Source: Bacteroidetes bacterium GWF2_33_38 (GTDB lineage Bacteria; Bacteroidota; Bacteroidia; Bacteroidales; GWF2-33-38). From it: 64,000 bases of DNA. Numbering within the stretch: the first letter of the stretch is position 1; each line of letters opens with the position of its first letter. The DNA lies in assembly GCA_001769505.1 (NCBI GenBank), contig MEOF01000069.1, positions 1 to 64,000 on the forward strand. The letters are read 5' to 3'. The position numbers and the translations under genes were made by a program. This document shows positions 52,298 through 54,487 of the stretch, one piece after another. The notes below the pieces were generated by a model. The model searched no databases and was not told the DNA's origin. It worked only from the letters and a program-made list of their open reading frames with translations.

Positions 52298-52387
52298 CGA
52301 TTATTTAATTGACTATTACGATTTTATTAAATAAAAAAATACCACCTTTAAAAGATGGTATTTTCGATTTTATGTTGCATAAAAACC

Positions 52388-53407
52388 TTATGGAATCAAA
52401 TACATAATATTTGTTTGCCATTTGCTTGTATCGGGCTCTTGGCTTGGGTCGGTAATATACTCTTCAACTACAGGAAGTAAATGAGTTATATTTTTTTCTT
52501 TCATGTACTCGTCCATTGCATAATGAGCTTCGCCCGATTTTTCGTAAGCACCAAAGTATTCAATTTTAACAGCTTTAGTTGGTAAAATTTCGATTATTTC
52601 AAGCGGAGAAGCTAATTTTACTTCTTTTTCTAGCTTTACTGGAACAGCAAAAGCAGACTCTGATTCTTGTGTTTCTTCGTTCCAAGTGTAATAAAAACCG
52701 TGAACAGTTCCCGCCATTTCAATATTGTTGGCTTGAATAAAACCCATAACTTGTCCGGCTGCTTGCTCGAAAAAGCTAGTCATTTCTTCCATTTTGAGTG
52801 TTTTTTTCACAGCTATAAATTTACCTCCGGCAAATTCGATTTCGATTATATTATAACCTCTGTAAGTTTTATCGCTACTAGCTAACATTTCGCATTTTGT
52901 TTTTAAATTATTTAATCCTTTTTCAAAATCTGCACCCAACATTTCGTCCATATTCATAAACAAAGCGAATATGTTTGAAGGAAACGAATTATGACCTACA
53001 AAACTCCAAGTTACATTAATCGCACTATCGGTTTTTGTAATTATATACGATGTTTCGCTTGTAGATTCCCAAGGTTCGATAAAAGTTACTATTAAATCAA
53101 CCTTTTCGTTTGGAATGATGTTGCTAATTTCCATATTCCCTTTGCCTACATCTTCGTTTCCTTCCCAGATCGATTTTGCACCAATAGTTCCATCGGTTCC
53201 TTCGTAAGTTGTAACCATAGCTGAGTCGTAAGCTCGCCAAGGCGACCATGTATCAACATTTTTTAGTTGACTTATTTGTTCAAAAATAATTTCATTACTT
53301 GCATTAATGCTAACAGTACGTTCGACCTTGTAAGTTTTAGGAGCTATTAGACCAACTGCCAAAACCACAACGATTAAAATTACAATAATGATTAAAATTT
53401 TTTTCAT
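52388..53407 (-). CDS. Membrane-anchored SRPBCC domain fused to GyrI-like effector domain
   Basis: A 339-residue protein. Residues 1-22 are a membrane anchor or signal. Residues ~28-170 form an SRPBCC (START/polyketide-cyclase-like) hydrophobic-ligand fold (VERTVSINASNEIIFEQISQ, WSPWRAYD, VTWSFVGHNSF). Residues ~185-339 are a GyrI/AraC effector-binding domain (IEFAGGKFIAVKKT, TKAVKIEYFGAYEKSGEAHY, EYITDPSQEPDTSKWQTNI). It probably senses a small molecule outside or at the membrane; the ligand is unknown. It lies 3 bp from the NDK-like gene, in one operon. Confidence 0.8.
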   Translation of the reverse strand: MKKILIIIVILIVVVLAVGLIAPKTYKVERTVSINASNEIIFEQISQLKNVDTWSPWRAYDSAMVTTYEGTDGTIGAKSIWEGNEDVGKGNMEISNIIPNEKVDLIVTFIEPWESTSETSYIITKTDSAINVTWSFVGHNSFPSNIFALFMNMDEMLGADFEKGLNNLKTKCEMLASSDKTYRGYNIIEIEFAGGKFIAVKKTLKMEEMTSFFEQAAGQVMGFIQANNIEMAGTVHGFYYTWNEETQESESAFAVPVKLEKEVKLASPLEIIEILPTKAVKIEYFGAYEKSGEAHYAMDEYMKEKNITHLLPVVEEYITDPSQEPDTSKWQTNIMYLIP

Positions 53408-53410
53408 GAT

Positions 53411-54421
53411 TTAGATTTTAAGTGATTTAAGTATTTTAATTGCTTCAAAATTATTCTTTTCCTCGGTAATATCAAAAATTGATTGCGTTTTTTTATTATA
53501 CTCAACATCAGGATTTAACAGAATTATATCGATTTGTTTTTCTGTAAAATTTTCGTTTAAAAGTTGTCCCATTTTAAAACTCAATAAATCAGGCTTAATT
53601 TTATTTTCGAAATCAGAATTAAACCTCATCAATTCGATTAATCCTTCTACTGGCCCAGCTGATAAATGCACACCATTTAAACTATAACTTATGTCGGCAA
53701 GTCCAAACGTTGCCTTATTTACAAATAATTCTTTACGAATGCTTCCATCTTTTGCTACCGAAGGGTTTGTGCTACCAATCAAATCAGTTCTCGCAATTTG
53801 CCAATCGGTATTTCCTTGCAACGTAAAGGTAACGATTGAACGCCCCGGTTTAATAAAATGCAACAATTGTTTTGGGTGAAAACTGTTTATAATATAAGTA
53901 TCAGCTCCATTTAGCAAAACTTTTTGCACATAAGTTCCTCCGGACAACTTAATTATTTCGATTTTTGATACAAGTTCTTCTAATCGCTCAAGTGTGATTG
54001 AATCATCATGTTTCATTAGCTCAAGGCTTCCTAGCAAATTAACGTCGTTGATTGATTTATTGAAAACTTTTTGAAAATTTTGTACAGCTGTTTCAGAAAA
54101 ATAAGTTTTAGGATTTTGCGATAATTGATTGATGATTCCGTAATGCTGAGCCATTATATTTGTTTTATCTAAATACTTAGCTGACAAAATATTAACATCT
54201 TTTATCTTTAGTTTATACTCATTAAGTTTTTCAAAAATAAAAGATAAAATTTCGTTTAGTTTTATGTTATTATCGGCAATCGTAATTTCAGGTTTTATAA
54301 AAAATAAAAATTCATGATTCTCATTATTGTGGTCAGTATTTTTTAAAATTTTTTTCTTTTCGAATTGTTCGTTTTGAACATTCCTAACTTCGTTAACAAT
54401 TGTGTTTATTAATTCTTTCAT
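53411..54421 (-). CDS. Atypical nucleoside-diphosphate-kinase-like protein with insertion
   Basis: A 336-residue protein in which two halves of an NDK fold are recognisable. Residues ~38-108 give the first strand FLFFIKPEI (the IKP lysine is Lys43) and QHYGII. Residues ~193-275 give RTDLIGSTNPSVAKDGSIRK (Arg211, Asn219, Arg229) and LNGVHLSAGPVEGLIEL, where Asn249 and His252 match the catalytic N-x-x-H of NDK. Between them lie ~85 extra residues, and a ~60-residue tail follows. Usual NDK length is ~140. It may phosphorylate nucleotides or be a regulatory relative. Confidence 0.6.
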   Translation of the reverse strand: MKELINTIVNEVRNVQNEQFEKKKILKNTDHNNENHEFLFFIKPEITIADNNIKLNEILSFIFEKLNEYKLKIKDVNILSAKYLDKTNIMAQHYGIINQLSQNPKTYFSETAVQNFQKVFNKSINDVNLLGSLELMKHDDSITLERLEELVSKIEIIKLSGGTYVQKVLLNGADTYIINSFHPKQLLHFIKPGRSIVTFTLQGNTDWQIARTDLIGSTNPSVAKDGSIRKELFVNKATFGLADISYSLNGVHLSAGPVEGLIELMRFNSDFENKIKPDLLSFKMGQLLNENFTEKQIDIILLNPDVEYNKKTQSIFDITEEKNNFEAIKILKSLKI

Positions 54422-54440
54422 TGTGATTTTATTTTGAAAA

Positions 54441-54468
54441 AAAAAGCCATCAAAAAAGATGGCTTTTT
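54441..54468 (-). terminator. Terminator after the lipoprotein gene
   Basis: AAAAAGCCATC (54441-54451) and GATGGCTTTTT (54458-54468) form a perfect 11-bp stem; read leftward it is followed by a run of T. Confidence 0.75.
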
Positions 54469-54487
54469 TATGATTTTATAAAATATT

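Follow-up and report, generated by a model that had tools for sequence, protein, structure and literature searches.

Nucleoside diphosphate kinase (NDK) is treated as a near-universal enzyme and forms a standard gap in the genomes that lack it. In the Mycobacterium tuberculosis enzyme, the active site comprises Lys10, Tyr50, Arg86, Thr92, Arg104, Asn114, His117, Ser119 and Glu128, while the alphaA-alpha2 helical hairpin and the Kpn loop together form the nucleotide clamp (PMC7554756). Canonical representatives (PF00334) include the enzymes of Myxococcus xanthus (2nck/1nlk) and E. coli (2hur), as well as a 145-aa protein (L001, 162.9 bits) encoded in the genome of Bacteroidetes bacterium GWF2_33_38. 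The same genome encodes a 336-aa protein (Table 1), hereafter the long NDK, within the window analysed here, a stretch of 64,000 nucleotides of contig MEOF01000069.1, and the initial annotation had described this product as an NDK fold split by an insertion, with the catalytic His retained.

Profile searches with the single sequence gave 16 bits against Pfam NDK, compared with a cut-off of 27, and aligned residues 185-236, while the NCBIfam NDK models placed the 336-aa protein far under their cut-offs. Joining the two halves, a check suggested in the initial annotation, yielded the expected NDK match over profile positions 20-117 of 135, but the score of 16.4 bits likewise fell under the Pfam cut-off. 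The same holds for the family as a whole, for which no Pfam or NCBIfam model reaches its cut-off, with 54 of 60 members matching Pfam NDK at E values up to 1 (best E 3.4e-6). A profile built from these 60 members retrieved NDKs from the PDB (E 7e-5), and comparison with canonical Bacteroidota NDKs by hhalign gave an E value of 1.9e-8. The AlphaFold2 model of the whole protein (pLDDT 96.6, pTM 0.91) bore out the proposed split fold, as the best 50 listed PDB matches in a Foldseek search were all NDKs (TM-score by target 0.61-0.78). Since these alignments cover about 245 columns and the targets are mostly 140-155 residues long, the insertion is directly visible. Based on the predicted ferredoxin-like NDK fold and the catalytic set of residues, the protein is thus assigned to the NDK superfamily. 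It lies outside classical NDK as modelled, since its score stays below the Pfam threshold and its hairpin is interrupted.

Alignment of 79 full-length members, at about 30% identity, and mapping onto the M. tuberculosis residues by alignment and counting revealed that K43, Y94, T218, R229, N249, H252, S254 and E263 are invariant, and that an N-x-x-H motif with Ser at +2 and Glu at +11 is present in every member. The active-site Lys, Tyr, Thr, Arg, Asn, His, Ser and Glu are therefore common to the long and the canonical NDK, as is the fold. The phosphate-loop motif reads F-F-I-K43-P-E, with Glu following K-P in the long NDK and Asp in the canonical enzyme, and the Kpn-loop signature G-x-T-x-P...A...G-S-[IL]-R is retained in the family. 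The IKP motif with Lys43, the STNP...GSIRK region with T218 and R229, and N-x-V-H with His252 lie where the initial annotation had placed them. Its reading of SDS as replaced by L-S-A is correct for Asp121 and Ser122 (human numbering), which have become A and G, but Ser120 is kept as S254 within H-L-S, so that HLSAGP stands against the canonical HGSDS. The base-stacking Phe (F60) is the sole canonical residue without a clear counterpart and is out of place in the long NDK: P183 occupies the aligned position by counting, with the invariant F181 close by.

Table 1. Coordinates of the long NDK gene, its mapped residues and its neighbours (window positions unless a locus is given; residue equivalents in human NDK numbering).
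Feature	Position	Strand	Remarks
Long NDK-like protein gene, whole ORF with stop	53411..54421	-	336 aa, ATG start; ORF and homologues
N-terminal extension ahead of NDK core, residues 1-35	54317..54421	-	helix 2-16, strand 22-27 (AlphaFold2 model)
K43-P44-E45 (Lys12-Pro-Asp14)	54287..54295	-	K and P in all members, E in 78/79
H93-Y94; Y94 = Tyr52 of catalytic site	54140..54145	-	both 79/79
Inserted domain, about 80 residues (99-178)	53888..54127	-	between alphaA and alpha2 of nucleotide-binding hairpin
R211, probable Arg88 equivalent	53789..53791	-	R in 68/79, K in 11/79; LIG motif preceded by one additional residue
T218 = Thr94	53768..53770	-	invariant, alignment
R229 = Arg105	53735..53737	-	invariant, alignment
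N249-G-V-H252 = Asn115 and catalytic His118	53666..53677	-	N, G and H invariant
S254 = Ser120	53660..53662	-	alignment, 79/79; retained despite loss of SDS motif as such
E263 = Glu129	53633..53635	-	invariant, alignment
C-terminal extension, residues 272-336	53414..53608	-	family-invariant N303, T319, E320; alignment and model
Membrane-anchored SRPBCC-GyrI protein gene	52388..53407	-	3 bp downstream of long NDK gene
Terminator-like hairpin upstream of long NDK gene	54440..54469	.	scan match on +; palindromic, reads on both strands
Terminator-like hairpin 3' of SRPBCC-GyrI gene	52335..52365	-	terminator scan
D-F-G-motif neighbour in four bins	L016:7296-7922; L031:7345-7971; L034:7307-7927; L057:4953-5648		

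In contrast to the canonical enzyme, the long NDK carries an insert of about 80 residues in the hairpin, a Kpn loop that is about ten residues longer than in L001, and extensions at both termini, with about 42 residues preceding the Lys (K43) in most members. The hairpin is split in all members and the length of the insert is nearly constant, as the spacing from Tyr94 to Leu186 amounts to 90-100 residues in the family (median 92) versus 12 in L001. The initial annotation had thus rightly noticed extra residues between the halves, although their number is 80 (Tyr94-Leu186), not 85, with the additional ten located in the Kpn loop. Modelled alone (residues 92-184), the insert folds with a pLDDT of 93. 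Its identity with a known domain was rejected, as we found no Pfam domain inside it, no matching fold in the PDB by Foldseek (best E 0.34) and no PDB match by profile (best E 1.2). Within this region G131, G162 and F181 are invariant, and K158, Y164 and N179 nearly so.

The best PDB sequence matches of the long-family profile, both restricted to the C-terminal half of the core, were the archaeal 195-aa NDK of Pyrobaculum aerophilum (1xqi) and the spirochaetal 190-aa NDK of Borrelia burgdorferi (4di6). Both resemble the long NDK in a longer Kpn loop and a lengthened stretch between R105 and N115, but differ from it in size (190-195 versus 336 aa) and in having H-A-S after the Asn, followed by Asp or Ala. 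In a review, additional subdomains are credited with making the P. aerophilum protein stable (PMC7554756). An acidobacterial 198-aa NDK (L107:1492-2085), with a long Kpn-loop stretch and N-x-I-H-A-S, is reminiscent of 1xqi, and its genome also has the long family. A further comparison is offered by two-domain NDKs of about 390-400 aa from Kiritimatiellae (L118, L120-L124, L126) and Spirochaetota (L108), which occupy the place of canonical NDK in the majority of the 146 Kiritimatiellae genomes. Their second domain is interrupted at the Tyr52-Phe60 hairpin as in the long NDK, whereas they possess an extra N-terminal NDK-like domain, retain HASDS and carry a helical insert; in hhalign the cores align (E 2.7e-5), but the inserts show no convincing similarity.

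A search of genomes of the same order returned seven homologues with 30-46% identity, whose alignment was then used to query 84,980 species genomes; 80 of 94 loci were kept. The family spans at least seven phyla, with members in Bacteroidota, Chloroflexota, Kiritimatiellota/Verrucomicrobiota, Spirochaetota, Acidobacteriota and Sericytochromatia and in one Nomurabacteria and one Micrarchaeota bin, whereby single occurrences in bins may reflect misbinning. In a tree, members cluster largely by phylum, with few exceptions. A divergent homologue, annotated as 'hypothetical protein' and devoid of the Thr94, Arg88 and Glu129 equivalents, is located on the conjugative Parageobacillus plasmid NZ_CP040554.1; a second hypothetical protein of this plasmid, considered as a possible paralogue, proved not to be one. 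We found no paper on the family in the open-access literature and no curated model describing it. A viral origin or phage role was rejected, as there were no matches among phage records or viral contigs; the top two structures retrieved from BFVD (E 1.5e-4 and 6.3e-3, TM by target 0.66-0.68) have the size of an NDK, and a single entry further down the ranking carries the name NDK-like. A role in defence was likewise rejected, PADLOC giving no match.

With regard to canonical NDK, 31 of the 42 genomes with the long family, drawn from different phyla, have no PF00334 match over the cut-off. In Caldilineales, 17 of 46 genomes carry the long family, and canonical NDK was found in none of these 17 but in 26 of the 29 non-carriers (Fisher p 6.5e-10, shared descent ignored); this value overstates independence, because the 17 carriers may stem from one replacement event. 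Among 121 sampled Chloroflexota genomes, 114 encode canonical NDK, and all three long-family carriers belong to the remaining seven. In Kiritimatiellae, 113 of 146 genomes match PF00334 over the cut-off, in most cases through the two-domain NDK of about 390 aa, and the six known carriers all have no such match, including the complete chromosome CP120722.1. As chromosome-level records (CP120722.1, OY282376.1 and OY282381.1) occur among the carriers without canonical NDK, genome incompleteness is an unlikely reason for its absence. Among Bacteroidota, a Chitinophagaceae isolate (Pseudoflavitalea) with the long family likewise seems to contain no second NDK. The presence of the family in Caldilineales and Kiritimatiellae genomes without canonical NDK points to a housekeeping role. 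Bacteroidales, by contrast, showed no exclusion (canonical NDK in 5/8 carriers versus 277/385 non-carriers, p 0.69), so a general replacement in this order was dismissed and the replacement claim is limited to some lineages, GWF2_33_38 not included. About 26% of high-quality Bacteroidales genomes (85/326) give no PF00334 match and few of these carry the long family; the existence of genomes with neither NDK indicates that absence of the canonical enzyme alone demands no substitute. Taken together, the long family has probably replaced canonical NDK in some lineages, and it coexists with it in GWF2_33_38.

We also considered whether possession of the long family goes with loss of Asp12 (KPD) from canonical NDK. 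KPG or KPM is frequent in carriers, but non-carrying Bacteroidales vary too, and the idea was discarded. Across canonical NDKs of Bacteroidales (L001, L099-L105, L109, L111, L112, L127-L166), the residue after K-P differs widely (G, M, R, T, N, C, Q and others) independently of the long family, while Asp12 has been described as conserved.

Gene neighbourhoods of the long NDK vary with lineage, with, for example, a SIS-domain gene in Anaerolineaceae and an RsmB-like gene in Kiritimatiellota. Genes of nucleotide metabolism adjoin it at few loci, namely a thymidylate synthase homologue (L034) and, on the Parageobacillus plasmid (L098), a SurE nucleotidase and a NUDIX protein. This plasmid region (L098:5209-18256) encodes myo-inositol-phosphate (MIP) synthase, methionine adenosyltransferase, an SDR, a HAD phosphatase, a small AAA/kinase-like protein, SurE, NUDIX, a PqqD-like protein and the long-NDK homologue, and constitutes a putative biosynthetic cluster, perhaps for a carbocyclic-nucleoside pathway. 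In four bins, a protein of 207-232 aa with kinase-like Lys and D-F-G motifs, for which we obtained no family or PDB match, is encoded directly upstream of the long NDK.

From the computed fold, active-site conservation, constant insert and distribution, we infer that His252 would receive the gamma-phosphate from ATP or a different NTP and that phospho-His252 would pass it on to an NDP, following the usual NDK ping-pong. The insert and the C-terminal extension would take the place of, or remodel, the mobile half of the base-gripping clamp that the helical hairpin forms, with the insert serving as a lid. The enzyme would have taken over from canonical NDK in several lineages and would act alongside it in GWF2_33_38. 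We regard it as reasonably likely that the long family is such a distinct, as yet unmodelled NDK class, with predicted phospho-His transfer, an insert reshaping the clamp and replacement of the canonical enzyme in several lineages, and the protein probably does the same housekeeping job as ordinary NDK. In GWF2_33_38, where a canonical NDK coexists, a specialised role is possible.

Because the clamp is the part that has changed, the main rival is a phospho-His phosphotransferase with a different acceptor, be it a nucleotide of a modified or uncommon kind, a phosphorylated sugar or cyclitol, or a protein, chosen by the insert. Such an enzyme would account for an insert with its own invariant G131, G162 and F181 in the base-gripping hairpin, for the altered position of the base-stacking Phe and for the canonical NDK already present in GWF2_33_38. 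It would also suit the divergent plasmid homologue in its neighbourhood of MIP synthase, methionine adenosyltransferase, SDR, SurE and HAD phosphatase, given that the MIP synthase orthologue Ari2 forms the cyclitol of aristeromycin (PMC11188666). This homologue, however, without its Thr94, Arg88 and Glu129 equivalents, may not represent the rest, and in the main family the NDK catalytic set is invariant and members occur where canonical NDK is missing; we therefore consider a different acceptor unlikely. A catalytically dead relative retained for a structural role appears far less probable still. The precedent is NME6, which has a complete NDK active site, yet is reported to be inactive, and activity can be lost through insertions close to the catalytic centre with all residues intact (PMC8597243); that the residues binding phosphate and His are strictly kept in at least seven phyla at about 30% identity nevertheless argues for selection on catalysis.

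The initial annotation had found the membrane-anchored SRPBCC-GyrI protein an odd partner for a housekeeping kinase and had suggested a signalling kinase or moonlighting relative. The neighbour itself was recovered as described (Pfam Polyketide_cyc2 31.6 bits, GyrI-like 32.4 bits), and both genes probably form a two-gene transcript in GWF2_33_38, flanked by the two terminator-like hairpins. This tight arrangement, together with the coexisting canonical NDK, would fit a regulatory protein or protein-histidine kinase working with SRPBCC-GyrI, but no homologue of the latter adjoins any of the 80 other long-NDK loci, where neighbours are lineage-specific. With the linkage unconserved, functional pairing was rejected, and the invariant active site in 79 members and the replacement pattern in other phyla make a signalling role very unlikely.

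A wider claim, which we judge slightly more likely than not, is that NDP kinases comprise a second class, separate from the first and marked by a new inserted substrate-clamp domain, and that this class took over from the canonical enzyme in several phyla, among them Chloroflexota and Kiritimatiellota, unseen for want of a family model. If true, complete genomes would seem to be NDK-less because such a model is missing. In Caldilineae, Anaerolineaceae, Kiritimatiellota and some Bacteroidota, the long family is a candidate for the missing NDK. The family also illustrates how an NDK can take a whole domain into its nucleotide clamp with the phosphate- and His-handling residues intact, and a family model would turn 'hypothetical proteins' of many genomes into candidate central enzymes.
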